Assembly (NCBI GenBank): GCA_003024175.1
Contig: MDYQ01000661.1
Coordinates: 157,901-221,900, forward strand
Direction of reading: 5' to 3'
Length of the DNA stretch: 64,000 nucleotides
Source: Planoprotostelium fungivorum
Taxonomy: Eukaryota; Evosea; Variosea; Cavosteliida; Cavosteliaceae
Shown here: positions 1,219 to 63,462 of the stretch, one piece after another
Numbering within the stretch: the first letter of the stretch is position 1
Layout of the letters: the number at the start of each line of letters is the position of its first letter
The notes under the pieces: generated by a model
The model's input: the letters and a program-made list of their open reading frames with translations, nothing else
What the model was told of the DNA's origin: nothing
The model's database searches: none
Translations under genes and position numbers: made by a program

Positions 1219-2963
1219 ATGACGGACACCATCGAGGCCACTCTTCCCATAGATAATCGAGTCAGTGACGAAGGAAGGAGGTCGAAAGTTACACAAGCGT
1301 GTTCGAATTGCAAGAGATCACATTTGTCCTGCGATACGGGTGAGATGTTGGGTTTAGACGCTCTCACCTGATATGAGAGGTAGGACGACCTTGCAAGCGA
1401 TGTGTTCAGCGTAAATTATCTTCTACATGTACAGATAGCGAGAGGAAGAAGAGAGGGAGGAAGCCAACAGACAGAGACGACTCACCACCACAACCGTTGT
1501 CTCCCTCTCCAGGTGATCATCGATCGATTACAATCATAATCCCCTATATGATCTGACGGAAGAATAGTTTCGAAGAAAGCAAACTTACGGCTGTCTCCAT
1601 CTCCTATTCTGAACGTGAGGACGGATCAAAGTCCCAACCGTTCTGATTAACTCATACAGCCACCATTCGCAGGTTACAATTACCTCCCATCACCCACTCC
1701 ACATTTCGACACGTCCATATCGAATGTTAGTAGCCTCCTTCAATTATTTCGACAAGAGGTGAGCCTCCATTCTCTCACGGTCATCTCGTCGATTCTGATA
1801 GAACAACAGCAGTCACAGGCTCACGTCAATGCGAATCCGACACTCGTAGTTCCAAAACAAGAGATGAAGTGAGAGATCATCTTCTCACATCGAGCTGATG
1901 TGAATCAGGAGGGAGCACATCGATCAACTGTTGGATCAATTGAGAAGCAGCTATTGCATGGATTCACCCTTCAATATCTATTCCCTCGCAGAATGTCACA
2001 TCGGTCAGTAGCCATAGAATCGTTTACGAGACGATGATGACGATGTACAGATGATCATCATGCGAGAGATCCTTATTATCCAGATCGAACTCCCTCGACA
2101 GAACAACATCTCATCTTTTTATCTCAGAATGCCAAACTACGGTGACCTCATCATCATCATCATCCTGGACATCACATGTCATCGACGTCGCACATCATCT
2201 CATCACATCCACTCTCTCATCTGATATAGAGGATGGCAAACTGAGACGAGTTGGCTCAGCTTGAAGAAGAGCACAGAGACGTACCGTCAGATCAAGAGGG
2301 AGATCATGTCTTTGGTCGGGCCGGAACAAGTGTTAGAGATGCGAGAGGCTTTCAGCTACACCCTGGCCGTGAGTCATCTACAACGAGCCAGATCGATTGA
2401 AAACCACAGTGGTGTAAGAATGGTGCCGCATGCAGTGATGTCCCTTGCATCATCTGGGGTCATCACGGCTCGGTCGAATTCGTCAACTCTGCATTTGTAG
2501 ATCTGACTGGATTCTGCGAGAGGTTACCCAGCGGCCTGGACAGACATTTATTGTTGGATTTATTTCAATTCGAGACGGGAGGAGGAGACGCACAGAAGGT
2601 GAAGAGTGGATGATGAGACGAGACTGAGTTTCGATGAGGAATTTGAAGAGAAATCGACCGTCATGCTACCCATACAGGTCGGTCGCGATCACCATGATGA
2701 CATGATCGAGATGGTGAACTGATGATGACAGTTGAGAATCTGGTCGAATCGAAAGAAGCTACCACTGGTGACTGTGATCAATCCTCTCACACAGCAAGAA
2801 GAGAGATTTGTAGACGGTGAGAATTGCTCATCATAAGATGCACTGATCGTGATGATCAGGTACGTTGTGTGTCAGCATGAAGAGAGACTCGTTGAACATA
2901 CCGAATCTCTTTTATGCACAATTTCTACCCTCTCCTGATGTGTTGAAGAGAGTCGCTCGATGA
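1219..2963 (+). CDS. Zn(II)2Cys6 transcription factor with PAS-like domain (ERT1/AcuK-like)
   Basis: Exon 1 (1219..1339) and exon 2 (1384..1512) join to give a fungal-type binuclear zinc cluster: CSNCKRSHLSC, then CKRCVQRKLSSTC, spacing C-x2-C-x6-C-x5-C-x2-C-x7-C, followed by a basic linker (ERKKRGRKP). After small exons near 1563-1617 and 1672-1759 come about 2261..2368 and 2410..2600, which encode a PAS-like segment (DVPCIIWGHHGSVEFVNSAF, DLTGFCERLPSG). Last exons lie near 2728-2818 and 2861-2963, ending VLKRVAR-stop. In fungi the order zinc cluster then PAS marks ERT1/AcuK/Rds2 regulators of gluconeogenesis, so a nuclear DNA-binding role is likely; target genes cannot be inferred. The start could also be an upstream in-frame ATG at 1006. 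The intron at 2369..2409 carries the CATCTACAACG element. Middle exon borders are approximate. Confidence 0.82.
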
Positions 2964-3287
2964 ATGGAATCTCGAATTCCAAAGGATGTAATTAAATAAA
3001 AAACAGAGAAGAATGCCTTCAATATTGAAATACTGTGGTGATGAACAGAAGGCCATCTCTTCGTTCATGATGTGACACACAACGACACGAGAGAGAGCAA
3101 TGTTGCGTCCAAGAGCGACCTGGTGAGTAATCTATACGTAACGCCGAGAAATGCCACCAAGTCAAGTCATTGCATCATCGCATCAAAACTCATCGCGATC
3201 ACATCGAAACACGTCACATCTTCATCATCATACCTTCCTTTATTTCTTCCTTCCATTTCGAGGCCCTCACTATTCAACATCAGATCA

Positions 3288-5495
3288 TCATCGAAACGCA
3301 TCACGCACCATGAACATGTTGTAATTGGAAGCGTAAGCCATGGGCTTGATCGCAGGGTGAGGCTGAACACGGTCAACCCCTCTCGATGAGTTCACCATCT
3401 ACAACTCACCACGGCCGTAAATTGTACGTATTTTGGATTCATCTGTGAATCGAAGCGAATGAGAGCTCCCTTGTTGCCGACAGAATCACAATAGTTGGGA
3501 GCAGAGAACACGGTCACCAGCTTACCATCGGCCTCCACTAGATAACCTGAACGACATCAACCGGCCGCGATAGAAGTACTTCATCTCATATCAAGTGAAC
3601 ACAATCGAAGTCATGTTCCCATCGACTCATTCTGATCATCAGACATGACGGTGATGACATGATGACTCGATCGTTTCAAGAGTGAATTCGAATAATTTGA
3701 GAATAAAAAAACTCCACCTTCTTCCTTGACTTCGTGGCTGCGAACGACCATTTGCAAGTTGTTGTCCTTTAAGAATTTGTGCGTCACGTCGGGGCCAAAC
3801 GCGACACCGACTCCACGCTTGTTGGGGCTTCTGCCGGGGAAGGGAGAGGGATCAGACCACAACAGCTCACACATGAGACCCTCATCGGGTGGCTGACGGT
3901 TTCTGGATATCTTTCGCATGTCGTCCAGCTTGACGCCGTCCTTGCTGAAGAGACCACCGTGGACGATGATCACCTGATCGCACGGTCAGATGGAAGATGA
4001 TGGCGGAGGTGATCATGATGAGGAGAGGAGATGAGCGTGATGATGTGATCATGATGGTGATGGATGCGATCGTGGATGACAAGATCATGATGATCGCGAT
4101 CAGATCGTGATCACGACACTCGATCACTGGTGCTCACCTTCTTGTTCAGACATGCCGACAAGGGCAACCAGTTGAAAACCTCCGTGAAGAGGTCAAAACA
4201 CTTCTTCGAGTACTTCTGAGTGACTTCTCCCTCGAATCCATACATTCGGTTCATGTTGATCGTCTCATGATTTCCTCGCATGAGATGAACGTGATCGGGG
4301 TAAAGTAACTTGTAAGCAAAGAGGGTCAAGACCAGCTCGAGAGAGAAGGAACCACGATCGACATAGTCTCCGTTGACTGGGGGGATCAATTTTCGAGTTG
4401 ACATTTGGGACTCACAGAGGTAGGGGTTTTCGATGGAAGGTTGGCCGTTGATTTCGAAGATATTGAGGAGGCTGATGATGTGTCAGTCCACTTGTGATGA
4501 TGTGTGATGTGTGATGTGTGACACATCGATGACAATGATGATGGAGATGAGTCGATGATGTGTCATTCATAGATGTAATGGTGATGATGATGATGGTGAT
4601 CTCACTCGTAGTACTGTCCGTGAGTGTCTCCACAGACGCTGAAAGAGTTTCCTTCTGGCACTTCGATATCGATGAGAGAAGGTAACTTGCATAAAAGCTT
4701 CTTCATCTCGATCAAGATCTGATACAAGTACCTGATGGAACATGGTGAACATCGAGGAGAAGAGATGAGATACTCACTTCGTGTGGAGTTTCTTCTGAGC
4801 TTTGAGATGGGCAACCAACTGTTGCACGAATGAGAGATCGACCTTTCCATCCATCAAATGGGGGCCATCATATGAGCTTTCGACCGAGATAGATTCAACG
4901 TCGAGTGTCTCGGATAGAGGTTTCTCGTCTTCGGTTGCAATTGCAGATTCGAAAGCCATCTGTCTAACGATCTTTTCACATTGCTTGAATTTCTCTTGAG
5001 CTTCTGCGTTCTTTGGAAGGATGCCAACCACCTGTCGTGCGTCAACATGTTTGTCAAGACTGAAGTCGATTTCTTAATGCATTCGACGTACCTTCTTAAA
5101 GTCCTTGAGAGCCTCCTTGTACTTGCCGAGAAGCAAATTGGCCGAACCCCTTCTGTAATACGCCTTGATGTATTTCGGGTCGACGTCTATAGCGGCCGAT
5201 GCATCTTGCAATGCAGCGCCATACTGCTCCAACTTGGCGTATGCAAAAGCTCTGTTAGAGAGGTAAACTGCATTCTTGCTGTTGAGCTCTATGGCTTTGG
5301 AGTAGAAATCGATGGCTAGGGCATACTTCTGTTCTGTCCAAAACGTCAGCGATAATTGGCAACGTATGATGTGAAGGGTTTTTTTGAATGAGAGAATGTG
5401 GATCACATAGACGCGAACTCACTTCCAAAATGGTCGTTAGCTGTGAGTTTGAACTCTTCTGCCTTCTTAAGGGTTTCTTCAGAGATTTCAGCCAT
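3288..5495 (-). CDS. PPP5C: Serine/threonine protein phosphatase 5 (TPR-PP2A-like catalytic domain)
   Basis: Nine exons: complement(3288..3362, 3410..3546, 3718..3973, 4138..4376, 4416..4471, 4606..4731, 4778..5031, 5092..5333, 5423..5495), in frame, 485 aa, the usual PP5 length. The N terminus ([11 protein letters not shown]) starts three TPR repeats (residues about 10-120) that in this family bind Hsp90 and auto-inhibit the enzyme. The catalytic part has all metal and phosphate motifs: GDTHGQ, GDYVDRG, RGNHE, IVHGGL, SHEV and SAPNYCD. It ends with the PP5-type [11 protein letters not shown] stretch and a C-terminal helix. The enzyme removes phosphate from Ser/Thr in cytosol and nucleus. The last intron (3363..3409) has a GTTGTAGATGG element. 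Confidence 0.97.
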
Positions 5496-8683: not shown

Positions 8684-10911
8684 TTATTTCTTCTTCTTCA
8701 CGGGAGTTGGATTCGACCACACGTAATCCTTCGGCTCGTATTTTGGTAGTTCATCACCCACCCTCTTCGTGAAGAACATCCTCTCGTATCGATTGGACAG
8801 CATCCACTTCATCTGACAACGTGTAAGTGTCCATCTACATCCATCATCGACACGATCAAGCATGATGCTGATGCTGATGCTGATGCTGATGCTGATGCTC
8901 TTGTTGATGATCACCTGTGGCTCAGAGAAAAAGTTTCCAAAACGCGCGCGAAAATCCGCAGCGACTCGGTTGAGGTAAATGACGACGGCAGCGTTGTCGT
9001 TGTTCATCTTGGGCAGCTGTAGACGTTGAGCGATCGTGATGGAGTCGATTCACCTTCAGCGTCCACAGGAAGACACCTCCCTTCTTTAAGAGGGGCATGA
9101 CGGGTGCGATCATGTCCATCATGACCCACGGTCGCTCGTTGACATCACAGACCTTTCATCATCAGATGTCGAGCGATCATGAGATGATCCGATGATGTGA
9201 TGTCGTGATCGCATGATATCCATGATGATGTTGATGTTGATGATGGCGATGATCATCGTGATGTTCATCACGAAGTCTACATGACAACACGATACAAATC
9301 AACTCACGATGAGATCGTACGGTGCATGAGGCTGTAAGTGTTCCACTGAGTCCTGACTCTTCATCTTCAGGTGTGTCAGATTCGCTGGCATGTCTGTGAT
9401 GGTGAAGTCTGCAGGGTCGATGCCAACCACGTGACCTTTGGGACACAACTGACGGGTTCAGAATTGGGACGGGAGAAATGGCGGGAAACCACCTGGGTGG
9501 CGATGAGGTAGGACATACCGCCGGGTGCCGCGCCTACGTCTACAACGCGGCTGTCTTCACGGATGTTCATGTCGTATCGGTCTAATGACTCTCTCATCTG
9601 ATATCTTGAGTCGATGAAAATTTGAATTGTGGTTTACTTCAGTCTTCAAATTAAAATTTCAAATAAGGAAAATTTTCGTGCGTCTTTTATCGTGGATGAT
9701 CGATACGTAGATGTGGCATTGTGAAATCAACGATATATTCAAAATCATATTTTATGTGACAGAGAAGAAAAAAATTGTACAGTATGTCATACATGTTGTA
9801 TCCTTCACATAAGAATGAGAAGAAAAGATTGTATCGATTCTCTTTGACTGATGTGATATCACGTGTTATCAGTTGTGTCTCAGATGTCACTTCACCTTGA
9901 AGAAAGCACGAGAATAAACGTCTTTCTCTGTGATCTTGTCCTCAGATTTAATGTAGAAGTATTCCTTCTCCATCATGGAGTAGAAGACTGTATCGCGCCA
10001 GACGACCACCGTGACGATGTGACTGAATCCCAGTTGTGGTTCCAATTGCACTTTCTTCTCTTCCAGGCGTTTGATGATCTACATCGTCTCATCAGCATCA
10101 TCATCATCCATCACATCACCGTCACGATCGTCGTCTGACATGATGATGGTGCTCACTTGGTCTCTCCTCACAGCCGGATAAGCTAAGACTCTGATTCTCT
10201 TCCCCTCGTAATCGAGCTCATCTAAAAAGTCCAACTTCATCTCTCGAACGGGGTTTTTGGCACCGTCGGGCTTGTGTTGGACTAGTTTCTTCCTCTGCAT
10301 GGTGATCTCTTCATCCTTCTCTTCGTCCTTCTCTTCGTCCTTTGTCTCTCCTGTGGGCTTCGTCTCTTCTGTTTTGCCTTCTCTCTCCAATTTCATCTTC
10401 TTTTGCATCTCACGACGAGGGCCTAGTGCAATGTGTCAACGGAGGAGTTGGAGATGGCAGGTCATTGGAGTTCAAGATCGGTGATGAAATAGAAGATTAC
10501 CTCGCGTGAGAGTCTGAATCTGTGAACCTTCTATCAAAGATAGACTCGAGGAATGATTTGAGATGTAGAAGGAGTGGATGTGTCTCAGAACATACGGTAT
10601 GTTCCAGATCCTAGACGATGTCTTCAACAATCGGCATGCGAGAATGGGGCTCACTCGTTCATCAGTTTCAAGATGGTCAAAGGTTGAATAACTTTCAGAA
10701 ATACCAGATCTTTGTCGATGTGAATGATGTCGACCTCTCCTGGGTGCTTTTCCTCGATCCATTCAGCGATTCTGCGCTGGTGATCGATGACAGTATATAG
10801 TATCAATAGTTGATCATCGAGACAATCTCTCAATCTGCCCTCCGTGGATACTGTTGGTCTCCATTCACACGTAGCCACTTCTTCATCGCTCATCATTAGA
10901 TCACATCGCAT
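8684..10911 (-). CDS. FtsJ/RrmJ-type SAM-dependent RNA methyltransferase
   Basis: Nine exons, complement(8684..8812, 8915..9016, 9054..9152, 9308..9448, 9493..9597, 9896..10078, 10157..10422, 10501..10610, 10655..10911), all phases agree, 463 aa. The C-terminal half is the methyltransferase: SRAFFKM (catalytic-Lys region), VVDVGAAPGGMSYLIA (SAM motif I), GHVVGIDP, YDLIVCDV (catalytic Asp), GGVFLWTLK (Lys) and a C-terminal basic tail. The order fits the FtsJ fold, whose members methylate 2'-O of rRNA, tRNA or mRNA caps. The N-terminal 200 residues are unrecognised, with a Lys/Glu-rich stretch of KDEEKDEE repeats (10310-10380). The first ATG at 10911 is followed by a second at 10893. It shares a 140-bp divergent promoter with the sorting nexin gene. 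Substrate unknown. Confidence 0.86.
8861..8902. repeat. GATGCT hexanucleotide microsatellite in intron
   Basis: About seven tandem copies of GATGCT, inside the last intron of the FtsJ gene. Confidence 0.85.
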
Positions 10912-11051: not shown

Positions 11052-12841
11052 ATGTCCGACGAATTCACATTTGAAGCCGGTGCCAATCATGGCGGCAGAG
11101 ACAGCCAAATCGAAGAGAACAACTTTGGATTCTCGGCAGGACAGTTGGACGCCCCTTCTGATGAGGCTGCAGTTGTTCCCATTTCCAGAACACCCTCTGC
11201 CTCTTTCACGACTGCTGGTAACAGTATGAGAAAATCGGGTGGACCAGCTTCTTACGATAGAGAGTATGTATCGCCCACATCTCCCTTCCGTATCAAGATC
11301 AGCAATCCCGCCAAGGTGAACATTTTATCCATTTCTCTTCATAGACGACGGACGAAGTCACTCTCTTCTGTTTCGTCCGTTTCGTATGACATATATATGA
11401 AACATGAATTCGCACCAGCGCGTGTACAATGGTCTGACACACGATTAGGTGGAATCAGGACTCTTGAATACTCACTCGGAGTACCCGATCCACGTTCAGA
11501 CCACTCTCAACTTCTACAAGAGTTCCGAGTTCACCGTCACCCGAAGGTGGACCATACGATAATACACTCCTCCATTCATAACATCTTTAGATACTCCGAC
11601 TTCGATTGGTTGAGAGAGAGGCTCGCAGAGAACAACAAGGGATACCTCATCCCTCCTCTTCCCGAGAAGGGATTGATCAGTGATTGAATCATCCATTTCC
11701 ATCATCTCACCATCTCCAGATCGCTTCAACAGTGAGTTCGTCGAATACAGAAGGAAAGAACTCGAGAAGTTCCTCATCCGTGTCGTCAATCACCATCATC
11801 TCTGCCAGAGCCCCGATCTCTTGGCTTTCTTAGAGACAAACAAGCCCGAGGGTGAGTCCATCTACAACGCATATCGATATCAAACCAAATTCATTCACTT
11901 ATCTCATCTCAAACGCATCAGGTGGACAAGTGAGAAAATCAGTCGAGAAGTCATCCGAAAAAGAAGCTGGCTCTGGCTTCTTCTCCTTCTTAGCCACGAC
12001 CCCAGCTGCCATGGGCACCGTCGCCGACCCCGATCCTTGGTTCGAAAACAAGAAGAACTACATCACCTCTTTAGAAACTCACTTCCAGATGCTGATCAAA
12101 AACCTCAACGCTTACATGAAGAAGAAGAAGGGTGAGTCAAAAAAATCGTAGGGAGTGGGGATTGAAACGGTGACAGAGAACGTCAACGCATTCGCAGAAT
12201 TCGGAGTCGCTTGTTCCTTGACCGCCTCTGTTGAGGCAGATCAAGACAGCATCACTTCGTCTTCTTTCAATCGTTTCTCTGATGTCATCACGCAGGCAAA
12301 CGAGTTAGAAGAGAGAAGGGTGAGAAAAAAAATGGCCGGGAGCGGGGATTGAAACGTGTCCAGATGAACGAGGAAGTCGGAGTCTTTGAAGACAGCCTGA
12401 GAGATTACGCTAGACTCCTCCAGGCCGTGAAAGAAATGTTGAACGCGAGACAAGAGAAGCTGAACGCTTACCACTACTCTTTCAAGTCTTTGGAAACGAA
12501 GAGAGAGAAGATGGAAAAGACGAAGGGAAACGCAAAGTTGGAACAAGAAGTAGCAGCCGTGAGTTTTTTTATGGACGATGATCACATATGATCACATCGT
12601 CATCACGATCACAACATCATGAAGAAGCTGAAGACATGTGTAGGCACAAGACACCGCGACCAAATCGGAGTTGGAATTCAACCAAGTGTCTGCCATCAGC
12701 CGCAACGAGCTACAGCAGTTTGAGGCCATGAAGTTGAACGACATCAAGGCCCTACTCATCCAGTACACGCAGATCAACATCAACTTTGAGCTGCAGATGG
12801 CTGACTACTGGAAATCTCTCATGAGTGACCTCCAAGCCTGA
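11052..12841 (+). CDS. PX-BAR sorting nexin (SNX1/SNX2/Vps5-like)
   Basis: Eight exons: 11052..11315, 11449..11546, 11591..11679, 11720..11851, 11922..12131, 12177..12319, 12364..12558, 12644..12841; 354 aa. After a low-complexity N terminus comes a PX domain (residues about 75-200): ISNPAKVESG, EFTVTRRYSDFDWLRE (Arg-Arg-Tyr phosphoinositide site), GYLIPPLPEK, FNSEFVEYRRKELEKFL and SPDLLAFLE. The rest is a helical BAR/Vps5 C-terminal domain with FFSFLATTPA, WFENKKNYI, FGVACSLTASVEAD and the final FELQMADYWKSLMSDLQA. Such proteins bind PI3P on endosomes and bend membrane in retromer-type recycling. The introns 12132..12176 and 12320..12363 share GGGAGYGGGGATTGAAACG. The intron 11852..11921 carries CATCTACAACG. 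Confidence 0.95.
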
Positions 12842-13130: not shown

Positions 13131-13135
13131 TAGGG

Positions 13136-19160: not shown

Positions 19161-22100
19161 TGAAGACACTCGTGTTACTGTTTTTGCTCTTGAATGTCGT
19201 TGCAGCCGCCGGACTGAACGAAAAGTGAGAAGATGTTCGCAGCGAGAGGATGTTCGCAGCGACAGCTGATCTCAATCAGAGTGGACGTCTATGTTGTGAC
19301 CCATTCTCACGACGACGTTGGATGGCTCAAAACTGTGCAAGGTTACTATGATGAAAGCGTAATGTCCTGTGAATACTTTTACCTCTAAAGAAATGCAGGT
19401 TCGCAGCATCATAACCACCGTTGTCGAGGCCCTCAACGCGAATCCAGGTGCGACATCAATCGAATGAGTGTTGCATTCTGATCCTCCGTCAGCTAGAAGA
19501 TTCTCACAAGTCGAAGTGACATACCTTCGCATGTGGTGGGCCGAAGCGACATCAGCCCAGAAAGATCAGATGAAGAAGTTGGTGGACAACAAACAGTTGG
19601 AATTTAATGTGGGAGGGATGACCATGAACGACGAAGCTCTCACCACTTATTACGAAGAGATCAACCAGATGACCGACGGCTCTCATTGGTTGTGGAAGAC
19701 GTTCGGTGATTAAGATGTGAATTGTGTAATGTCCATCTGACTGCGATGGAGGTGTGAGACCGGCTTCCGTCTGGCACATCGATCCATTCGGTCATTCTAC
19801 GGCGACTGCCTCTCTTTGGTCACAGGTGAATCATCCTCCTCTGTACTTCACCAAATGCGATCTTGCATCATCTGACGTCCGATCAGATGGGCTTCGACTC
19901 CTGGGGACTCAATCGCATTCCATATTGGATCAAAGATCAGATGAAAGCGGAGAAGGGTGATTCCAACACCATCATCCATCACATCTCATCGTCTCCGACA
20001 GGTTTAGAGTTTGTTTGGCAGGGCTCTCCCTCTCTCGGTTCTGCTTCAAACATCTGGGCTCACGTGATGGATTCTCACTACAGTACCCCGACTCAGATCA
20101 ATTTCGATGGAAATTGGGACCTAAAGAAAGTGGCCGACGACACGGTGGAGAATCCGTGGGAACCGTACGTAATGACATTGGAACAGGTGACAGAGTTACG
20201 TACAAGGTCGACGTGGTACCCTCACAATAAATTGATGATCCCTTACGGTGGGAGAAGTGGTTGGTTGTAGATTGACATCTCAAGGTGATGATTTCAAGCA
20301 CGTGCACGCCGTGGAAGATTACGACAACATGGACAAATTGATCGACTACATCAACTCAAATCCGACGTACAATGTACGTACTTCGTAATGAAATTTCGGT
20401 GGAAAACTCAACTGTCACAGATGACACTGAGATACGCTTTCGTGTCAGATTACGTCAGAGATGTCAACCGTCTCAACTTGACCTGGTCCACCTTTCGAGG
20501 TGAAATCGAATGTTTTATTTCCATTTAATCTTCATCTACAACGTAGTAAAGGTGATTTCTTTCCCCTCGCTGACGTTTTCGATCGTTTTTGGACTGGCTT
20601 CTATACCTCCAGGCCCGCTTTCAAACAGTACGTCCGAAAATCAGACGCAGCCCTCGCCACTGCAGAGGTGCTCCATCTACAACTCTGTAGATGGTCGAGA
20701 TCATCTCACCTCTTCAAACAGGTCACCTTGGCCATGGGTAGTTTGACGGGAGCAGTTAAGAACGTCACCTCATCAGAAGATGAGATCCAAAAATTAAGAG
20801 AAGCTACCTCCATCGCCACTCACCACGATTCCAGTGAGCTGTACCATGCAGAAAAGTCGATGACATTTCGTCAGTTCCAGGAACGGAGACCGTCTGGGTC
20901 CAAGACGATTACAATTTGAGACTGAGAGAGGGTAACGATGCTGCGGCCGATGTTGTGAGAGACATCACTAGAGAGTGGATGGGAGTAGGCGACAACGAAG
21001 AAGTTAGAGAGTACCACGTCATAACGAATCCATTAGCGTGGGACAGGAAGGAGGTGATGACGTCATACATATCGAGTTTTCACCGACATTTCGATAGATC
21101 GTGTCGGTTTTGACCAATCGTACCGGGGCCGTCGTGCGTTACGGTGAAACCGTAGTGCCGTCCCAAGTAAGTCCCAAATATAATGAATTAAAATGCATTT
21201 ACGGACGATTTATTTCTTCGTCAGGTCAACCCCGTGCCGGTCTACTCGAAAGCAAAAGCCACCCACCGCCTCTACTTTTCCGTGAATATTCCACCCCTGT
21301 CATCGGCTACGTACAACATCGCGTACAACAATGATCCGGCCACTTTCGCATCTACCTCGAACACCCTCACCAATGGAATCGTACAATTGGATTTCAACGA
21401 GATTTCGGGTAAATTGACAAAAATAGCGGACCATCGCAGGGGTAGACAAGTGAGGGAAATCGAAACGAAGAGAAAATTGAGGGAAAACAGGTCAACGCAA
21501 CGATGGATCTGCTTCAGTACGTCGCCTCCTACGATTCACCTTACTCGACCGAGTCAAGTGAGTGATGTCATCGTGACGAATGATGACGTCATCGGCAGAC
21601 GCTTGGGTGTTCAGTCCACAGACCGACAGCGTCAAGTCGTACCCCGGGGGTCAAGATATCGCCCAGGTCAATATGACCATTTACCCTAGGGAAAACGTAC
21701 CGTACGTATTTGCCACGGCATACAAGTGAGTTTTCTGCTGATATTTTCACACTGAGGAGATATTTAGAAACGATGATGAGCCTATCATCGTTACGCCCGG
21801 GTATGCATCGGTCGATCAAGTCAGCTGCTCCATTTCCCGCGCGGATTTTGGCGGGAAATTGTCGGGCAACGGACAAGTCGATTTCATCGTATGGAATGAC
21901 TTTCCATTGAAAGACCTTCTACCTCAGGTCGAAATTCAATTGAAATTTCATCTTCATCACACAGCTCATCTTCTGGTAGGTTGAATTTGACATGGGCAGA
22001 ACTTCACTGAAAACTCCCGGATCGATCAAAGTGGCGTACAATTTCTCCGTCGCCCCTGTCGTCATCCTATCTGCATCTACAACCAGCCAGACTAAAAATA

Positions 22101-23934
22101 TACTGTTGACCGCCACTCTACAATCTGCCAACACCGATTCCTTCACAGCGACCGTTCACCGAATGGACGGAGAAGATTCCTGGAACGAGGACGACCAAGT
22201 GAGGCCCTCGTTTGATGACGTCATCACACGTCACAGGTCGTTCTACAATGGTTGGCCGTGACATCGGGAGGATACAGAGCGAGCGGCCAGCACTTCTACG
22301 CCGCAGGTACCTCCAAAGCTCCTGCGGGCCAGAAGCAGACACTGACCAAGGTATGACATCTCATCGTCTGAGAATGACGTCACGAAATACGGCAGATCGA
22401 CGTGGAATATTCCGAGAATTTTGCGCTCGATCCGGTCGTCATGGTGACACCGGTGTGTGCGTCGGGTGCCGCTTTCAACTTGAACGTGAGGAACAAGAGC
22501 GTCGGAGGATTTTCCGCGAATTTGTTCCGCTACAACGAGACATCGGAAATGTCTCTAAATTATATCTCTATACCCAGATATGCATCTGTCGAGAGGGTAG
22601 CCCGAGAGGTAAACTTGGAGGAAATTTGGAGGAACTTTCGGTTGATTTCTACAGACGAAGAATGTGGTGTACAGTGGAAAATTGGTAAAAGAGCTCCAGC
22701 AGTATTACGCTCCGAATTACGGTCAGACATACGTACAGTACGTATCAAACACCTTCCAAGCCCACATCACCGAGGTGAAGAACCTATCCAATGATTGGAA
22801 TCAATCATTTTATTTTCAATCGTTTTATTTTGATGTACCATGTGACGACGCTCAACGATGCAGGTCATCAGCGAAGTTGGGCCGATACCAGGCAGCAGAG
22901 AATTGGTTGCTAGGCTAGACACCTCCATAGCAACCGACACCACCATGTATACCGATGACAACGGTCTGGAGGTCGTACAGAGAAAATTCAGAGAAAACGT
23001 CTCCCAACTGCAGGCGGGAAATTATTTTCCCATGGTACAGAGGTAGATGTCGGTGAAATTTCGTGGTGATGACGTCATCAGGGCATTCGTCCGAGACGAA
23101 AGGGAAGACGTCGATCTACAACTTGACATCTTGTCTGATTCCTCCCACGGTATCGGTTCGTTATCAGACGGACAGGTGAGACATTCTGTGAAAGATCCGG
23201 GAATATTCGTAGAAAACTCAACTCCATCAGGTGGAGATCATGCTGCACCGCCGTCACGTTCGAGAATTCTTCGGTAACGTGAGTCCATCTACAACGAGCC
23301 ATCTCCTTTCAAACGTCATATCTGACCTCGTACAGCCCATGGACGACCAAGACGCCATCACACCCTCTCTGTGGCTGTCTATCGGTGACACGTCTTCTCA
23401 GACGTTCGTCATGAGGTACGTGTCCCTCCTTCAGCAGTTCCCGCTGTCCATTCAGAAGGTAGAAGACAATACGAGGGAGAGGCTTCACATTCCCAACGGA
23501 ATGGTCGCGTTGCCAAGCAACGTCCACCTCCTTACCCTGCGTGTCTTTGGAGGGTAACGGAGAGAGATTTGGCGGAAAAATTGACGCGGACAGGTCTTAC
23601 CTGTTGAGATTGCAGCACATCTTCGCTGCGGATGAACACCAAGTGTATTCGAAACCGGTGAAGGTGACAGCACGATGACGATGACGATGAGATGCGAATG
23701 AGAGTGACGCGAAGACAGGTGCATCTGAAGAGAGTCGTGGGTGACCTCTTTAAAAATGCGACCATCACAGAGTACAACTTGAGTGCCAACCAACCCGTTG
23801 ATGAGATGACACCTCTAAAGTGGAACACGAAAGAGGGAGATGAAGGTCATCCCTATCAACGTGTGCCTCTGAGAGAGGACGGTGTCCTCATCTTACAGCC
23901 CATGGAGATCAGAACCTTCTTGATGGATGTCTGA
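19161..23934 (+). CDS. Lysosomal-type alpha-mannosidase (GH38)
   Basis: The start MKTLVLLFLLLNVVAAAGLN is a signal peptide. Zinc and catalytic motifs follow across small exons: VTHSHDDVGW, VEVTYLRMWWAEA, GGMTMNDEA (region of the Asp nucleophile; most family members have GGWVMNDEA), SVWHIDPFGHS, MGFDSWGLNRI and FVWQGSPSLG. Downstream exons give the helical bundle and the beta domains (RYAFVSDYV, ATHHDSSELY, HVITNPLAWDR, FDVPCDDAQRCRS, DNGLEVVQRK, then LHRRHVREF). The last exon ends EIRTFLMDV-stop. The enzyme trims alpha-mannose from N-glycans in acidic compartments. More than 20 exons; introns at 20248..20284, 20668..20721 and 23279..23335 carry forms of the CATCTACAACG element. Exon borders beyond those named are approximate. 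Confidence 0.92.
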
Positions 23935-24148: not shown

Positions 24149-27100
24149 ATGTCTAGGAAGAAAGATACAAGGTTCTCCGTCAATTTTGGGGCGCTGGACC
24201 GCGGATCTTTAGCTCCTACATCAAGTAAAGAGGCAGTCTTAATGGTTCCATCACAGAATACCTGGCTGGCGAGGGCGATCGAGAAGAATCGAGAGGATGA
24301 AGTTGCTGCAATCATCAAAACGTATAACGCGGGAGCGGTGCAGGCCACGGATCATTTGGGAAGGAATTGCATTCACGTGTGCGCTCAGTATGGAACATTG
24401 ACCATGCTGGAGCTCTTGTTGAAGCACGAGCCCGATTGGAGAGCGGGCGACAACTTTGGAGTGACCCCATTGCATTTGGCCAGTCAATCGGCCAGATATG
24501 ACATAGTAGATCGTCTCATTTCACTCGGCGCCGACGTGAAATTGGTGGGTAACTCTTATTCTTTATTCCTCCAAAAGTGTCTGTCGTGTGATATGATGAT
24601 GACATGATACAGATGGACGACGGCGGTAACACATCTCTACATTATTTATGTGGATCTACGATCCCAAAAGAAAAGAAGACTGGGTTCTTAAAGGTGACAA
24701 CTCCAAGATCATATCACATTCCATCTTTGACCATCCCAATCAGAGTTTCAACGACATGATCAAAGCTGGAGCTGATCTCTACGCCCGAAACATCACCGGT
24801 GACGTTCCCCTGCACGAGGTGACATCACCTCTCACATCATCATCCAATCACTCATCCTCTAAGGCCTGTCGCACCGGCAGTATCACCGCCGTCAAAGTCA
24901 TGGCCGAACAGAGGGGTATCGAATTGGATTCTTCCAATTTACAGAAAGAGACACCCCTCCATCATGCAGCCCGTCGCGGAGAGAAACGCATCGTCCGAAT
25001 TCTACTCGAAAAAGATGTCAATTTCGGCGCCGAGAGCGAGAGCGGCACTGCAGCTCAGGTGAACGACTCCACTCTCGCATCGCATCTCACATGATGAAAA
25101 GGTCGCGCGAGAGAACAACCATCATGAAGTCGTGTCGCTCATCATGAACTACGCCGAGAAGAAGAAGAAACAAGTTGCAAAGGCCACGATGAATCGTAAG
25201 ACAAGGATGACAGAAGAAGATGTCTTCAAGCAGTTGGAGTACAATGCGGAGAAGTCCAATCGTTTCGAAGAGTTTAAGAGGTTGGTGTCCGAGTCAAAGA
25301 TCGATCAGCAGAAGCTCATGAACTTGACGAGTCCCACCGGTAGGACGCTCATGATGGTGGCCAATTATCACGGTGAGGGAGAGTTGTAGATGGACATTGA
25401 GACGGGAAAGGAAATTGGGACTTGGTCACGTGGCTGCTGTCGAAGGGCTTCCCGGTGAACGGGCAGGACAAGAACGGTGAGAAAATTGGGGGAAAATTGG
25501 GTGATGATGAGTAGGCTGGACGAACCTACATTATGCGGCGTGTTCAGACAATGGAAAGGTTGTGATCGGTCTCTTGAAACAGAGGGACATCAATGGTGAG
25601 ATGTCGTCATCGATCACGTGATCTTCATCACATGAATAGTTCATCGAGTAGACGTTAAACACTATCATATCACGTGACATATTATCTCACCATCATCGTA
25701 CAATCACATCATCACATCATCTTCATTATCATCACCATCACCATCATCACCATCACCATCACGTTGACCCTCTATATCCTCTGACTCGTAGATAGTAAAT
25801 ATCAAGAATCACGATCAAAACACACCCCTCCACTACCTCGCAAAGAACACGTTTTTCCCTAACCTGATGCCCGAAATCATGGAGATCCTCCACACCAAGT
25901 TCATGCACTTCAACGCCACCAACGTCAACGGAGAGACAGGTGGGACGTCCCAAATTATTTTCCCGCCAAATCTCACCTCCCCCCCAGCCCTCCACAACTC
26001 GTGCTGGAAGGGAAACATGGTCGTGACGCGGCTGCTGATCGAGAAGGGAATCAACATCAATTTACCGAATAAGATGGGCGAGACTGCTCTACACTGGGCA
26101 GTCAGGGCGGGCCAAGAGAATCACGTGACACTGTTGATCGACAGGGGGGCAGACATCACGATCAAGGGTCAAGAGGGTCTACCGTTAGACATCGCGACGT
26201 CTGCCTTGCAGCCCAAAGATTCGATCATCCTGGCGCTCGGCGGGAAACGTGAGATTGGGACGGACGGAATTGGGAGTGAATTTTTCAGCGAAAAACAAGG
26301 AGGAGGAAGAGTCGAACAAGAGGAGTTGGTTCCAAAACATGCTGAAGAAACACAAAGAACAGCAGGCGAGCGACGTGGCCGGTGACGTCAAATTCGAGAT
26401 GCAGACGAAGCTCAATTGGTTGATCAAGCACGACGAGCTCCAGGTGAGAACATCCCAAAATGAAACATTAAAATGAAATAAAACAGGTCCACGAATTATT
26501 GGGAACGGGTCGATTCGGTGCCGTCTATCGTGGTACCTATCGAGGCCAGACGGTCGCCGTGAAACACTTGCAGAATGTCAACGGAAAATACGAACTCCAA
26601 AAAGAGTTTGACATCATGAGCGCCATGAGGTTCCTCATCACCTTCATGACTCGCACTTACATCTTCAGGTCACCCAGAGTCGTTTATTTTTACGGCGTAG
26701 TTCTATCAGAGACGATGACAGCCTACATCATCATGAGCTACTGCGCAAAAGGAGCTCTCACCAGCGTGTTGAGAGACACACTCATGGATCTAAACTGGCC
26801 CCTCGTCTTCAAGTGGTGCAGACAGATCGTCCAGGTGAGGCCGGAGTGGCTCGTTGTAGTCTGACACACCCCCGGGGAGTCAACGATCTACACTGCTGGA
26901 AGCCACAGATCATTCACAGAGATCTGAAGAGTTTGAATCTATTGGTAGACGAGTACGATGACATTGTCGTGTCAGATTTCGGTATATCTCGGTTCGTTGT
27001 AGATGACAACCTGTCTACCCTGGGTAAACTGAGAGGTGAGGAAATTTCGGTGAAATTCGAGTGAAAGAGGGCAGGCACTTACGCTTATTGTGCGCCGGAG

Positions 27101-44279: not shown

Positions 44280-46712
44280 TCATGATCTCTTGATGATGGT
44301 GTGGGTCACGGACTTCTCGTATAATTCGTGGGGTAGATAGGCGTGACCTTCTGCTCTGGGCGGTGTGAAGTCTTTGTCTATGAGAAAGACAGCGACCTCC
44401 GAACAGGTGGCATCGTTATCACCTGTTCACCTCTTTAGCAAGACATCTTTGACATCGTGATGCATGATGATGCATGATGATGCATGATGTCGGTGATGCC
44501 AGATGGAGATGAGATAGATCACCCGAGAAGATGTCCGCCTTGAATCTGCGATCGGGTTCTATAAATAGAGTCGGCTGTGCGAACGTAGGTTTCGTCCACC
44601 AGCCGCCGCCCACCTGTCGACATTTGAACGGTCTCCTTCGGTCGACATTTCTTACCTTGATGTACAGCGCCACTCGGTGTTCGAACGGGTCAGCATCCAA
44701 TATCTTACCCTCTAATGTTCCCCTGGGCCCCGTAACTGACTTCTCGATCTGTGCCAGGTGATGGTTATTTCCGCGAAATTTCGTCGAGTTTTCTCACCAG
44801 CAAGCCGGGTATGCCGCTTCGGTCGACGATTTCATGGTGGAGGGAGTGAGAGAAGAGGAGCTCGGGCAGATCAGAAGAACCGAGGACCCTCGGAACTTCC
44901 GCGGTCCTTGCGAGGAGGAATACCGCGATCTCCGTGGCGTTGACGTCGTTTTCACCTGGCTCGTTGTAGTTGGGCACGTCGACGTGATCTCACCTGTCGA
45001 CACATCGACTTCGAAGCTGCCATCGGGTCTAATAAACGTCGACGATTGCTCTAGGGTAGGCTTGACCCACCACTGGTTGTCGACATTTATGAAAGTGGCG
45101 ACTTTGAGTGTGGCGGTGTCGTGATGGTTGTAGACTCTACCGCGAATGGGGTTGCGGCTGCCGATCTGGAGGACATCAGAATGGGTCGAAAAAAGGCGGG
45201 AAAATGTCGTGAGCTCACGGAGGGTACGGAGAGGAGTGAGAACGATGGAGTCGAATGTTCTTGTCCAGATCGATTGCCAAAGACCTGTAAATCATTTGAA
45301 TCTCTTTTAAAGAGGAAAAGTGTACACTCTGCGATAGAAGAAATGAATAAAAAAAAGAAAGAGGAAGAAAAACGCACTTCTCTGGTTTCGAAACCGGATT
45401 TGATTTTGCCCGCGGAATCCATTACGCCCCAGTGGGCTCCCCTCTCTCCTTCGTGTTCGACTTTCCAACCTTCGTCGAACGCTTCAAAGTAGAAATATTC
45501 GACCTATTGTGTGGTCGATATTCCATCTACAAACGTGTAGATGACGATAGATGAGAGGGAAATGAAGGGAGGTCACGCACTCGATGGTGGTCGGCCCAGG
45601 CTACAAAGTTCTTGAAGAAGTATGCACCGGCTTCTAAACCAGCTGCGGCAGCTCCGTGGTCTTCCCCTGCGGTAGGCCATCCGATCTCGGCGATGACTAC
45701 CTTTCGAAATTTGAACGATTCGTTCTGGCGGGAAACGTCACCTCTTTCCCTTGGCTCATGCTGACGATACGGCTGTCAGGGTCAGAAATCGAGGATAAAA
45801 TGAAATAAAATCGACGTACTTGTAGTGTTGCTCGGTGTGGTCTAAGGCGGCCTCAATTGGGACCTTGTCCCAATATGCATAGATGTGTACGTATACGATA
45901 TCGATGACGGTCAATACCTGATGAAAAATCAATCTACAACGTTGTAGATGGATGACACCTTGGGGTGTTTGTAGTAGAGACCGTATGGCTCGGCCGTCGT
46001 CACTTGAACTTGTTGAGGGACTCTCTTACGAACCTGAGAGATGTCAATAAGATATCTTGCACCTCCTAATGCCATGTGGTGATCATCATCGAGATGATCA
46101 TCGAGATCACGATCATCGTGTCAAACTGACCTCTTGGATGTATTGGATCAATTTTTCTTCACTCAAGTCTCCTCTCAGAAGGACCTGATGATTACGTCAG
46201 AGAATGGTCACCTCTTGAAGATGAGAGTTCTCACTTCATTTCCCACGACAGCGACGTTGACCAACGGAACACCACCTTCATCGAGTTGATTACAGAGATG
46301 AACCAGTCCCTCGATCTGTTCCCTGTCTGCCACTTCGTTTCCACACAGCCAAGCCCCGATGGAGGATGTGACATCTGCGGTTGCATTATATCAGATTTGG
46401 AAGATGTGTCGATCATCGATGGAATCCAGAGTTCGAATCACCTCCTTGATACATCTCTCTGACACGATGGGGGACTCTCTCTAATCCTCCTCTACTACCG
46501 TAAGTTCTGACGGCAGTGACATGGAAAGAAGAAGACATCAGAGAGAGTCTAGAATCGATTTGGATGTCCTCTAATGCATGCGTGAACGCTGGCGACTGTC
46601 CATCCAGATATGGAGAGAAACATAAGCCACTGATCTAGCCATTGTCATTCGACTTTATACCGGCACGTAGATGTGAAGAAGATGAGCACACCTGTCCCCT
46701 CTCTGTTGCCAT
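44280..46712 (-). CDS. GH17 endo-beta-1,3-glucanase with two C-terminal beta-sandwich repeats
   Basis: The start MATERGQ joins over a 53-nt intron to ISGLCFSPYLDGQSP, the usual GH17 opening. Catalytic regions: VNVAVVGNEVRT (acid/base Glu) and VVIAEIGWPTAGEDHG (nucleophile Glu), then VEYFYFEAFDEGWK and GAHWGVMDSAGKIKSGF. Behind it (44280-45120) two related modules each read WWVKPT or WWTKPT, F-x-PD-x-x-F, D-x-x-[ST]G and a GxND-x-x-AT-x-I-x-VFL[LI]-type end, as in accessory domains of secreted glycosidases. No signal peptide is visible at this start, which is odd for a GH17. The family cleaves beta-1,3-glucan, here possibly of fungal prey or of the cell's own cyst or stalk wall. The introns 44956..44993, 45504..45580 and 45918..45958 carry the CATCTACAACG element. 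Inner exon borders are approximate. Confidence 0.88.
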
Positions 46713-46884: not shown

Positions 46885-48848
46885 ATGGCACAACCTGTTT
46901 CATCAAATGCTCCAGCGGCCGTCTTTGAGGCATTCGAAGAGGTGAAGGATGCAGCCTGAATCAATTTCAGTCGGTAACATGGCACAATGCCTCGACCTGA
47001 CGTTATCGAACCTCAATGTGATCTCATATCTGACTCTACCACAGGCATTAGAGGGAGAGGTCACCATTGGAGTTCCTCCCACAGATACTTCCCTCTTTGC
47101 CCTCGCCGCGGAGGCCATCGTCCCTTCCTTCTTTAAAGTCACCGTAGATAGGTAATACCGGAGTTGTTCGGTCATTCCTCCAACTGCATTCTGACGTTAC
47201 CGTTAGAGTCATGAAGGGACCCACTTATCCCACCTGGAACTACCCTTTTGAAGTAGCCATAGGAGCCATCCGCTCCGTCTTATATCATCAGAAGGCCCAC
47301 CAGAAAGAACTATTCCAGGTGCTTCACCGCATGAGACCGCATTTCCCCATCTCACCTCGAATAGGGCGTCAAACCTTCCGAGCGCAGGGCCATCTGCTTA
47401 GAAAAGTGAATTTACCTTCCTCTTCACCCTCCCTCCATATCATTTCGTCTTATCATTCGATACTGATGGAGATCGAATTAGAATGGGAAAGGCTAGGAAG
47501 AGGATCGATGGAGGACTCGAGAAGAACCGATATTCGAAAGAAGGTATCCATTTCGAACCAGTCATCTTGGAGAGATCTGGTTTCCCCAGCGTCTTCAAAA
47601 CCAACACCGAGATCGACAGTCTAGTCGATGAGACAGGTGGGGTGATACAGATGAGAACGACTGTCGAGCATGATCAGGATCATTAGACATGGAGTGGGTG
47701 TCACACAAAAACTCATCTGAGAACCGAGTCGTCCTCTATTTCCACGGAGGTGAGAGACATGGCCTTGTGCGGAAAAATCCGCTGACTGTGAGCAGGTGCA
47801 TACTGCGCCATGTCACCCAAAACTCACCGCGGTATCACTACCGTCATCGCACGCACAGCCAAGTGAGATCCCACACATCCACGACATCTCATCCTCTTCT
47901 CATCATCATCACATCATCATCTCGTGTCTCTTCACATCGCTCATCATCGTCCCAAGGTGTGGAGTGTTAGCCGTGAACTATCGTCTGGCACCCGAATTTC
48001 CGTTCCCATCAGCCCTCCACGATGCCCTCATCTCTTACATCTACCTCGTCAAGAACCTCAAGGTCAGCCCGGACAGGTAGGTCTAACCTACCTTCCCGCC
48101 TAAATATTCCAGGATCATTCTGGCGGGAGACAGTGCCGGCGGTGGACTCACCGCCGCCCTCTTGCACTACATCCGAGATTACGGCTCCACCTTGGACTTA
48201 CCCCAACCCGGTACGTAACTCGAAATTCCGCCGAAATCTCATCATCTGCAGCTGCCGCCGCCATGCTATCACCTTGGCTGGATCTGAGCAGCACGTCGGG
48301 TAGCTCGTGGACAGATAAGACTCTCCCTGACTACATCCCTTACTTTGAAAATACACCACCTAAAGAATGGTGGGACCCATCCAGATTGTACATGGACAAG
48401 GTCTCCCTGAAGCATCCGCTCGGCTCTCCACTGTGGGGCAGGTGCGGGAGTGGCTGGTTGTAGATGGAGCTGACGTAATCAGTTGGGAGGGACTACCACC
48501 CATTCTGGCGCATTACGGAGGTTTGGAGAGATTGAAGTCCGACGGAGAGATGGTGGTACAGCTCTTGCAGGTGCGAGTGCGAATGCGAATCTGCGACTGA
48601 GGAGAGCAGGAACAAGCGAGAGAGAAGAATTGGACGGTGGAGTTCTTCCCTGGAGGCTGTCACGTCTTCCACGGCTTCATGACTGTATCCCATGAGGGAA
48701 GGTAAGTGCAGCGTTCTATTTTCAGCCACAAACTCACCGTCGCAGATTGGGCATGGAGCACATTAGAAGATACATGGAGGAAATTTGGGACAAATCAGTG
48801 GAGAAGAAAATCTACGGCCAGGGCGTCCGAACCGTACGGGTCCGATAA
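46885..48848 (+). CDS. Alpha/beta-hydrolase, hormone-sensitive-lipase-type esterase
   Basis: The start MAQPVSSNAPAAVF is 172 bp from the divergent GH17 start. Exons then give an N-terminal cap (PTYPTWNYPFEVAIG), VVLYFHGGAYC (HGG oxyanion hole), VLAVNYRLAPEFPFPSALHDA, IILAGDSAGGGLTAALL (GDSAG nucleophile Ser), AAAMLSPWLDLSST, PPILAHYGGLERL and PGGCHVFHGF (catalytic His), ending RTVRVR-stop. This is the fold-3 (GDXG) esterase/lipase family, which hydrolyses short or medium acyl esters; the substrate is unknown. No signal peptide is seen. The intron 48442..48482 carries GTTGTAGATGG. The region 47960-48110 and several other borders are approximate. Confidence 0.87.
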
Positions 48849-50122: not shown

Positions 50123-50209
50123 GCTCGATTAGCTCAGTTGGTTAGAGCACCGTGCTAATACTCGTCCCACGACACGCGGGGGTCGCAGGTTCGATCCCTG
50201 CATTGAGCA
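50123..50209 (+). tRNA. tRNA-Ile(AAU) with 13-nt intron
   Basis: The acceptor stem GCTCGAT pairs with ATTGAGC (one G-U) and a discriminator A follows at 50209. D arm GCTC/GAGC, anticodon stem CCGTG/CGCGG, T arm GCAGG-TTCGATC-CCTGC, variable loop GGGTC. The anticodon loop CTAATA-A gives anticodon AAT, and the intron 50161..50173 sits at the canonical 37/38 position. Internal box A (TTAGCTCAGTTGG) and box B (GGTTCGATCCC) are present. Confidence 0.95.
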
Positions 50210-61156: not shown

Positions 61157-61228
61157 TGTCTTGTGCGGAAGAGAATGACCTTGTTGTGGATCGCCGCGTG
61201 TGGCATGTTTGTGTCACTTTCTGTCACC

Positions 61229-61260: not shown

Positions 61261-61393
61261 CACTATCGTAACAAATGCATCCCTTCCGTACGATACGGCA
61301 TCATAATGCGTCGCTGTTAGAAACACGGTTCGATAACGTGAAATAGGGGTGATGTGTCATGTGGGTTTTTATCCGTGTCACTCTCTGGCCTTT

Positions 61394-61423
61394 AAGGACA
61401 TCTCTTCGCTTCACGAAGCGAAC
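61394..61423. promoter_or_regulatory. Palindromic element upstream of G8 copy 2 (copy B)
   Basis: Second copy of AAGGACATCTC followed by TTCGCTTCACGAAGCGAA. A shorter third form TTCGCGAAGCGAA lies at 61566..61578. Confidence 0.6.
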
Positions 61424-61818
61424 ACCTGGGGTCGTCTCATCATCGTGATGAGCGGTATCAGTGAGGTGGTCAATGGTCAAGGTCAAGGTCAAGGAAAAAG
61501 TAGGGGCCCATGTGACTGTACCTCGTCTCGCGCACGATGGCGTCTTTATGTCACTAAACGGCACCTTCGCGAAGCGAATGAAAGAAAAGAGACGAAAAGG
61601 CAATTGTCTTTTCTTGCAGCGCATAGGTGATTCACCCATTTATCCGGTCAGTATGGTATCACCCCTGAGTCAAGAACAAGTAGTCTAGTTCTCCCAAGAT
61701 TCTACTCGTTGATTCGGCACCCATTGCTCGACTGAACCTCATATAAACCTTATCTAAACTCTATCTAAACTCAAACCAGGCACAGAAGAGACCACCATCA
61801 TAAATATCCATTCATTCA

Positions 61819-63462
61819 TCACAAGAGATTCTTCTTCTTGCAGTAGATGTAATAGCCAAGGAGGAAGACCATGTTCGTAGCCACGATACCACCAGATATC
61901 ATGTAGAAGGCGTGGGGATGTTCTTCCATTCCACTGTGCAAGTTCATACCAAAGATACCAGCGCTGAGACTGCACAGGGCGGTAGAGAAAGATCCGGCGG
62001 TGAGGAAGAGCGTCAACTTCATGATGCGATTGCGGATGCTGATCGGATCAGATCGTGAGATACATCATGATCAGACGATCGAGTGATGATGAGATGATGG
62101 TCAAGCGGATCATGCGAAGAGATAGACGAATTGGATGTAGCTGACTCACTGATCGAGCGTGAAATTCAAGTATTCATCGATGGTGGCGATGGATCGTCTC
62201 AGTTCGGCCATCTCTTGTTGCGCGAATTGGATCTGTCTCTCATCAGAGTCAAAGTCGAGATCACAATCACCTGTCTCAGCGACGCTTCGAGTAGAAATTC
62301 GACTTCTTCGTGATCTTCGATGTTTCTTCTCCTTCTACAACAGTGTAGATGAGTGCGTGGAATATAAATATGATTTCTATGTTTCTCACCCTCTGTGTTG
62401 ATCCGTGAGGTAGATCTTGATCATGTCTTCGTTGGACGAACAGACTTGACTGATCAACTTGTGAAGAGAATTTCCGGTAGATGTCATCTCATTCAAACTC
62501 AAGAGAGTCAATCGTGAATGATGGCCGTGCGTTCTCACCTGTTTCTGTGTTTCAGTAATTCCTTGTGCAAATGCTCTGGTTTATCGCTGTGTGCCGCGAT
62601 ACGATCCAATAGCTCTTGTATCGAGAAACGTAAAGCGAACAGAATGGATGTCAGTCTCTGATGTGTGGCACCCAAGACAGCTTCTAAAGCCTTCAACTCG
62701 AATGTGCCGTGTTGTGTCGAGTGATCTGATCATCGATCACGACCCGTCATCACATCACGGATCACGATGGTGATCGTCTTTACCTTCTCCGTTCATTTCC
62801 TCGGCGAGAAATTCTCTGATGTTCTGATTGATCGTCGTCTCTTTATCTCCACTGAAGATGTACAGACGGTTATACGTGACGATGGCTCTCACGTAGATGA
62901 GGTTCAATACCTTGGTCACATCAGACACGATCGACGACGGATCGGTGATCGATGATCCACGATCGATTGCGATCGATTGCGATCGATGGGTGGTGATCGA
63001 TGATCGATGATCGATGATCGATGGATGGTGATGACTCACGATGGCTCGATCTTTCGTGACGAAAGCTGGTGGTACAGAATCTTCAGGCAATCCTCTCAAC
63101 TCCACCGTTCTGAGGTCTCTCCTCGATAATTGTAGAGTCTGAAGCATCTCGTGACGCGGAATCTGTGCAGGTGTGAACAACGTGATGATCTCACACGATC
63201 GAGATCGATGTCACCTTTTCTTCTCGTATTTCTTCGGGTCCCGAAAGAACGAGTACCTGAAAAGTTCAGGAGAGATGGTAGAATCAATGATTACCTGTAT
63301 GTCTTTCTCCTCTTGACTTCTCTGCATGATGTATTCTGCAATGAGGCCACTGGAACGTCTCTGTCGGGTCTGTGTGGAACTGTCCACATCGGCTTCTTTC
63401 ATAGCAGCCTTGATCTTCTCCTTCCAGAAACTCTGATATCGTGCAGGTTGATGAAGCAGCAT
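61819..63462 (-). CDS. CorA/Mrs2-type magnesium transporter
   Basis: The last exon encodes MKLTLFLTAGSFSTALCSLSAGIFGMNLHSGMEE and a second helix MVFLLGYYIYCKKKNLL: two C-terminal transmembrane helices joined by GMN, the ion-selectivity signature of CorA/Mrs2/Alr1 channels. Upstream exons form the long helical cytosolic part: LQLSRRDLRTVELRGLPEDS, VRAIVTYNRLYIF, FELKALEAVLGATHQRL, LLSLNEMTSTGNSLHKLI, DHEEVEFLLEASL and ELRRSIATIDEYLNFTLDQ, typical of Mrs2. The N-terminal exon (63290-63462) reads MLLHQPARYQSFWKEKIKA, and earlier exons are possible. Location (mitochondrial inner membrane or plasma membrane) cannot be decided. The intron 62335..62389 contains TCTACAACAGTGTAGA. Confidence 0.88.

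Follow-up and report, generated by a model that had tools for sequence, protein, structure and literature searches.

Why should one short sequence, read in either direction, recur inside the introns of unrelated genes? The question is raised by a 64-kb stretch of Planoprotostelium fungivorum DNA (contig MDYQ01000661.1, positions 157,901 to 221,900), which we call the window and for which an earlier note had proposed that a short hairpin-like word was left behind by introner-type elements. We confirm that the recurrence is real: the 11-base word CCATCTACAAC, or a close relative of it, is carried in one or the other direction by about 5% (one in twenty) of the predicted introns in the window. 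Our results suggest, with a probability that we put at roughly two in five, that this is a constrained, orientation-free recognition word, kept in these introns and predicted to be recognized as double-stranded DNA. The introner reading in its strict form is not supported.

All counts refer to this single window, and the gene models and intron boundaries behind them are predictions. GC content is 45 to 52% across the window (4-kb steps), and short introns are many. We wrote a semi-Markov gene finder for this stretch and trained it, blind to the word, on long open reading frames; it returned 24 models with 248 introns, whose median length is 49 nt and of which the shortest are 34 to 36 nt. Pfam matches to the models include PP5, a GH38 mannosidase, a PX/Vps5 sorting nexin, an MRS2-like transporter, an alpha/beta hydrolase, an ankyrin-repeat kinase, GH17 (a weak match) and RTA1, among others. 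The models are not free of error: g8 joins the mannosidase to the ankyrin part of the kinase. The gene finder nevertheless recovered, at exactly the same coordinates, all 13 introns that the earlier note had named as carriers. These do lie in several unrelated genes, but in 8 rather than the ten claimed, and two carriers had been missed, one at 20500-20551 with an exact copy of the 10-mer CATCTACAAC and one at 8813-8914 with one mismatch, giving 15 introns in 9 genes. No Pfam family was obtained for the gene at 2369 (model g0), which had been labelled Zn2Cys6.

The word is far more frequent than expected. Counting both strands and all sequence classes of the window, CATCTACAACG has 15 matches at up to one mismatch, compared with 0.91 expected and a highest count of 4 in 100 dinucleotide shuffles. 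The 10-mer CATCTACAAC is found nine times in introns, where an order-2 model trained on introns predicts 0.02, twice in exons and never in intergenic DNA. It is common to 9 introns, while the top 10-mer outside low-complexity sequence reached 6 in 200 intron shuffles, and usually 3 or 4; in none of the 200 did any one 10-mer reach 9 introns. The core is commoner in introns than in shuffled sequence, a point on which the earlier note had let its proposal turn. At up to one mismatch, the 11-base CCATCTACAAC is found 15 times in introns (14.5 kb in total), three times in exons (37.8 kb) and once in intergenic DNA (11.7 kb). With each base taken as one trial, its density is higher in introns than in exons (Fisher p 1.5e-6) and higher than in intergenic DNA (p 0.0016), the latter being an enrichment that the earlier note had proposed to look for. 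The 15 intronic sites occupy 14 introns, as the intron at 45918 holds two; the intron at 26835, which has two core mismatches and a full GAGCCACTCC extension, is the fifteenth member.

Introns with the word are a discrete class. When the best match to CCATCTACAAC is taken for each of the 248 introns, 7 introns have no mismatch (shuffled mean 0.0) and 6 have one (0.23), while 3 have two (4.08) and 40 have three (31.2). This profile is bimodal, with 13 introns at 0 to 1 mismatches versus 0.23 expected, no excess at two mismatches and no tail of decayed copies among the 248. Its significance is inflated to some extent, since CCATCTACAAC was chosen from those same introns; the 200-shuffle 10-mer test allows for the choice. 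Chance, or the composition of introns rich in CATC and GATG, would have to account for both the profile and the shuffle result, and we regard this as highly improbable. Composition does make many words common to these introns, and in a looser test it draws level: among 11-mers at one mismatch, the best word of the CCATCTACAAC family is found in 11 introns, a CATC-type compositional word also reaches 11, and the maxima of ten shuffles were 7 to 10. At two mismatches, 11-mer counting has no power (the introns of model g22 were excluded at both levels). Since the looser test yields only a tie, we rely on the exact-match tests and the mismatch profile.

Comparisons free of a preset word are in part dominated by composition. 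An all-versus-all alignment of unmasked introns is governed by CATC/GATG low complexity; after masking, pairs of the CCATCTACAAC family are near the top, alongside pairs sharing the words TTTTATTTCATTTTA, GAAATTTCGGTGG and TTTGGCGGGAAA (paralogue pairs between models g6 and g22 were excluded from the masked alignment and from the listed pairs of the unmasked one). A sequence-only model built from 11 units gave 14 matches in the window at E<=0.05, 12 of them intronic and 2 exonic (22074 and 26991); 10 of the 11 building units coincide or overlap with matches and hence match by construction. Exact matches to CCATCTACAACGAGCC in IMG/VR numbered 12, taken as chance without calculation, and GTGAGTCCATCTACAACG had 2, both in records titled bacterial metagenome-assembled genomes and also taken as chance; CCATCTACAN4TGTAGATGG had no match, and the PP5 protein had no relative among viral contigs. 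Among the titles listed in literature searches none reports the word, and the 15 listed of 26 text matches to CATCTACAACG came under titles unrelated to fungal introns.

Read in the orientation of the element, the conserved core is (T)CCATCTACAAC, and what follows on its right takes three forms. Six units continue into GAGCCACTCC, whole or in part. Three of these are forward with respect to the gene, namely TCATCTACAACGAGCCA at 2374..2390 (+ strand; intron 2369-2409, model g0), CCATCTACAACGAGCCA at 23285..23301 (+; 23279-23335, mannosidase) and CCAACTACAACGAGCCA at 44957..44973 (-; 44956-44993, minus-strand GH17 gene), which touches the acceptor; all three read CTACAACGAGCCA, one more than the two extended forward copies previously described. 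The other three are reverse: CAATCTACAACCAACCACTTC at 20254..20274 (-; 20248-20284, GH38 mannosidase), CCATCTACAACCAGCCACTCC at 48447..48467 (-; 48442-48482, alpha/beta hydrolase) and the kinase unit with two core mismatches at 26843..26860 (-; 26835-26908). Four introns carry, as a second form, an inverted copy of the type CCATCTACA-N4-TGTAGATGG. This pair is perfect at 20673..20694 (CCATCTACA-ACTC-TGTAGATGG, +; 20668-20721, mannosidase); the others are CCATCTACA-AACG-TGTAGATGA at 45523..45544 (+; 45504-45580) and CCATCTACA-ACGT-TGTAGATTG at 45930..45951 (-; 45918-45958), both in the GH17 gene, and CCTTCTACA-ACAG-TGTAGATGA at 62331..62352 (+), which spans the acceptor of intron 62335-62389 in the minus-strand MRS2-like transporter gene. 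These are the four full hairpins of the earlier note. Neither continuation is present in the third form, which comprises the reverse core CCATCTACAAC at 3395..3405 (+; 3363-3409, minus-strand PP5 gene), the forward core at 11858..11868 (+; 11852-11921, PX/Vps5 sorting nexin), TCATCTACAAC at 20532..20542 (+; 20500-20551, mannosidase), which is one of the two newly added copies, the reverse core at 25383..25393 (-; 25373-25410, ankyrin part of the kinase gene) and the other addition, the weak reverse copy CCATCTACATC with one mismatch at 8831..8841 (+; 8813-8914, minus-strand FtsJ-like methyltransferase gene).

The similarity among member introns ends sharply, at 11 to 22 bp. The spacer is 4 bp in all four inverted pairs, and no further convergent or divergent pair of CCATCTACA at one mismatch was found within 60 bp. 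Arm columns are invariant at 8 of 9 and 7 of 9 positions and spacer columns at 1 of 4; such a constant 4-bp gap with free letters is what one would expect of a putative paired binding site. No terminal inverted repeats enclosing an interior were seen, as the four pairs within 60 bp all have adjacent arms 4 bp apart; any longer symmetry in the intron at 26835 is, judged by eye, imperfect. The 3' part of that intron (26835-26908), as bounded by the earlier note and the gene finder alike, translates as GVNDLHCWKPQIIHRDLKS, a conserved kinase-like stretch, and for this reason its boundary is probably wrong. Judging by this translation, the intron is probably shorter at its 3' end with the unit still inside it; by eye, no AG acceptor that fits the frame was found for it, which leaves room for a sequence error or an unusual acceptor.

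The word is not confined to introns. The earlier note had expected coding sequence to be free of it, but exon sites with one mismatch to CCATCTACAAC are present at 22073, 23112 and 26996. Exact copies of CATCTACAAC in exons (2 versus 0.115 expected from codon usage) are a mild excess (P 0.015), and in the model search the exon copy at 22074 also carries part of the GAGCCACTCC extension. The copies at 22073 and 26996 sit in frames that resemble real protein; the latter lies in the kinase domain, and the former, as we read the translation, would fall in a lectin-like repeat of the GH38 protein.

Relative to the gene, 7 of the intronic sites are forward and 8 are reverse, a balance that points to DNA rather than RNA. 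A word or hairpin that helps splicing in the pre-mRNA would be the obvious RNA-level explanation, and two palindromic introns do give better folds than shuffled versions of themselves (z -3.46 and -2.33) while several forward copies lie near the donor. However, it is hard to reconcile with both orientations in equal number, with a full hairpin in only 4 of the 15 introns, with the unremarkable folding (z -0.81 to 0.60) of the other six of the eight member introns that were folded, or with the stem pairs of the four inverted pairs, of which 4 of 36 are broken and none compensated (four sequences). The folding results and the orientation balance make an RNA hairpin unlikely as a general explanation, and an RNA element of any such kind seems to us very unlikely. 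Hairpins as such are also not special to introns: perfect stems of at least 8 occur in 12 of 246 introns versus 5.1 after shuffling and in 7 of 254 exons versus 7.0, but intergenic segments are raised as well (6 of 25 versus 2.4). The position of the units within introns is not fixed. Five forward copies begin 5 to 7 nt past the first intron base, but units are not significantly near intron ends (p 0.12) or the donor (p 0.11), the latter a relation that the earlier note had suggested examining. None of the 14 site-bearing introns is the first in its gene model, and member introns (n=14) are no longer than others, with a median of about 50 nt versus 49 nt overall.

The flanks of the units are unrelated. 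With the unit masked, the mean pair score was 9.29 among 14 members (that at 8813 left out) and 9.17 among length-matched random introns (p 0.38), and the best pair scored 19 versus 21.2 (p 0.54); the random introns excluded models g6 and g22 and introns above 110 nt. The copies are nearly identical and should be young if they are neutral, yet recent copies of any longer element ought to have their flanks in common. What is left is either the insertion of a very short piece or, as the simpler option, a selected word in drifting introns. Small dispersed palindromes exist in other genomes, and a piece of about 12 to 22 bp, once CCATCTACA-N4-TGTAGATGG or a half of it with GAGCCACTCC, may likewise jump or be copied into introns. 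Discrete, near-identical copies with unrelated flanks, in both orientations and including four inverted pairs, are what such a mobile palindrome would produce. We nevertheless think it unlikely, given three right-hand continuations instead of one sharp end, arms that are kept while the spacer letters vary, near absence from intergenic DNA, member introns of ordinary length, and no repeats flanking the units (mean 1.79 nt versus 1.67 nt at random).

An introner origin was the proposal of the earlier note, and part of it stands: one sequence is present in non-homologous introns, in both orientations, and is enriched in introns. Counting the word alone, 15 introns in 9 genes share it, where at least four introns in non-paralogous genes are required for introners by Gozashti et al. 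2022 (PMC9860276). Elements inserted in either direction could have become introns of which only a terminus or core recognized by the mobilizing enzyme was preserved, the interiors having diverged or never been common to them. Besides the enrichment over intergenic DNA and the two orientations, the five forward copies close behind the first intron base would fit this, as would six introns of 37 to 41 nt in which removal of the unit leaves 16 to 26 nt, under the length of the shortest predicted introns; these six would be too short without the unit, so that the word cannot have been a mere addition to an already complete short intron. Amoebophrya introners share short inverted repeats (PMC7789003) and fungal introner-like elements are internally symmetrical (PMC8469720). 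However, introner families are recognized by similarity that reaches near both splice boundaries (PMC9860276), and here there is none beyond the unit. Decayed copies are absent, and no clear target-site duplication was found around units or at intron junctions, where repeats are nominally slightly longer in 14 members than in other introns (mean 4.07 nt versus 3.53 nt; at least 5 nt in 29% versus 18%). The GH17 gene adds one indirect comparison. A domain of this gene is duplicated in tandem, and the unit-bearing intron at 44956 splits the glycine codon of VST-GEND, as the unit-free intron at the homologous position (44423..44522, - strand) splits that of IFS-GDND, both in phase 1. Read most simply, this intron predates the domain duplication; if so, the unit is not a mark of intron birth there, unless the other copy lost it. 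On balance we consider an introner origin rather unlikely.

A DNA recognition word would explain why either orientation and a variable distance from the splice sites are tolerated. Something would recognize 5'-CCATCTACAAC-3' as double-stranded DNA, and the word would be retained in introns, serving as a half-site that is preferably continued on the right by GAGCCACTCC, in the inverted paired arrangement CCATCTACA-N4-TGTAGATGG, or as a bare core. Selection would hold it and a putative sequence-specific protein would bind it. The constrained core, free flanks and orientation independence by which a binding site is judged were all found within the window. Several observations weigh against this. 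Only 1 site lies in the 11.7 kb of intergenic DNA, a place where one might look for binding sites; no site-bearing intron is the first of its gene; the GAGCCACTCC extension of about six copies exceeds a simple half-site and would be expected of a short repeated unit; and the unit accounts for a large share of the length of the six introns of 37 to 41 nt. The lack of first introns makes promoter-type regulation unlikely and, with intergenic DNA nearly empty of the word, we would place its action within the body of transcribed genes, where it might affect chromatin, elongation or co-transcriptional splicing, and not at promoters. A bolder version, in which a fixed 11-bp, orientation-independent tag in internal introns marks gene bodies genome-wide and its single and inverted-pair sites are read by one dedicated putative protein, is in our opinion quite doubtful. 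If it were true and the window typical, about 1 in 20 introns would be tagged, and very short introns would carry a DNA-level signal besides being spliced out.

The density of the word permits a direct test of the origin of introns and of the information held in very short ones. If the word-bearing introns are young, they would expose the way in which introns arise; should they instead be old, with conservation limited to the word, introns of 37 to 77 nt would hold signals at the DNA level. The window also offers a caution, since exact short intronic repeats can suggest introners even though the similarity stops short of the intron ends.

Other features of the window concern its introns or genes more generally. 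Two introns of the sorting nexin gene (12132-12176 and 12320-12363) are alike nearly end to end, with an A-run and GGGAGYGGGGATTGAAACG, while the surrounding exons differ where shown. Their normalized global score is 0.50, compared with a maximum of 0.54 and a mean of maxima of 0.38 in 30 shuffles (introns of up to 80 nt, g6-g22 paralogue pairs excluded). As a putative case of intron copying, this pair may be stronger than the CATCTACAAC word. Companion words also recur: TGACGTCA in 9 introns and 2 exons, TTTCCCGCC in 5 introns and 5 exons, GAAATTTC in 6 introns and no exon, and TTTATTTCATTTTA at two mismatches in 8 introns and 1 exon, none of them in intergenic DNA; copies of short words of this kind lie at 20514, 26469, 37935, 41998, 43218, 45796, 55590 and elsewhere. 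By eye, 7 of the 9 intronic copies of TGACGTCA lie in the 3' half of the intron, and branch-point and acceptor sequence may account for this word. Tandem arrays of 18 bp (41485-41808) and 17 bp (42354-42438) lie beside and within introns in a group of models (39427-43566) that, by their sequence, we take to be one valyl-tRNA synthetase gene. Two paralogous genes lie in inverted orientation at 13218-17720 (+) and 56665-61156 (-). By Pfam, run on the N-terminal 381 residues of the former, they have G8 and CEMIP-type beta-helix domains, and divergence between matching introns is far greater than between the exons. Only one of the two holds a 105-bp exact direct repeat (60697-60927) with a step of 126 bp and ambiguous bases and an AT run between the copies, which may be an assembly artefact. 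A tRNA gene, probably intron-containing, lies at 50123-50209 (+; Rfam 54.5 bits), for which ARAGORN gave no definite amino acid.

Among known systems, the PATCs of Caenorhabditis elegans resemble the word in being a noncoding DNA signal associated with introns. They differ in that PATCs are periodic A/T clusters, whereas the word is a discrete 11 bp. Introners (PMC9860276) likewise share sequence between introns of unrelated genes, the method used for them allows insertion in opposite orientation and family median lengths go down to 30 nt; however, those families are similar near both splice boundaries, while the word is an interior 11 to 22 bp. Inverted symmetry in introns of many genes is also found in fungal introner-like elements (PMC4457414) and in the symmetrical stwintrons of Hypoxylaceae (PMC8469720), but both are related over the whole intron and are introns only on the coding strand, with terminal inverted repeats of 45 to 55 nt in those of Hypoxylaceae. 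The introner elements of Amoebophrya (PMC7789003) carry inverted repeats of 8 to 20 nt inside otherwise diverse introns, as the window does. Theirs, however, join the intron ends, with direct repeats of 3 to 5 nt at the junctions and many non-canonical introns, whereas the introns of the window lack clear direct repeats, are GT-AG and have adjacent arms 4 bp apart. The Amoebophrya and fungal elements indicate that short or symmetrical inverted sequences can accompany the spread of introns (PMC7789003, PMC8469720, PMC4457414).

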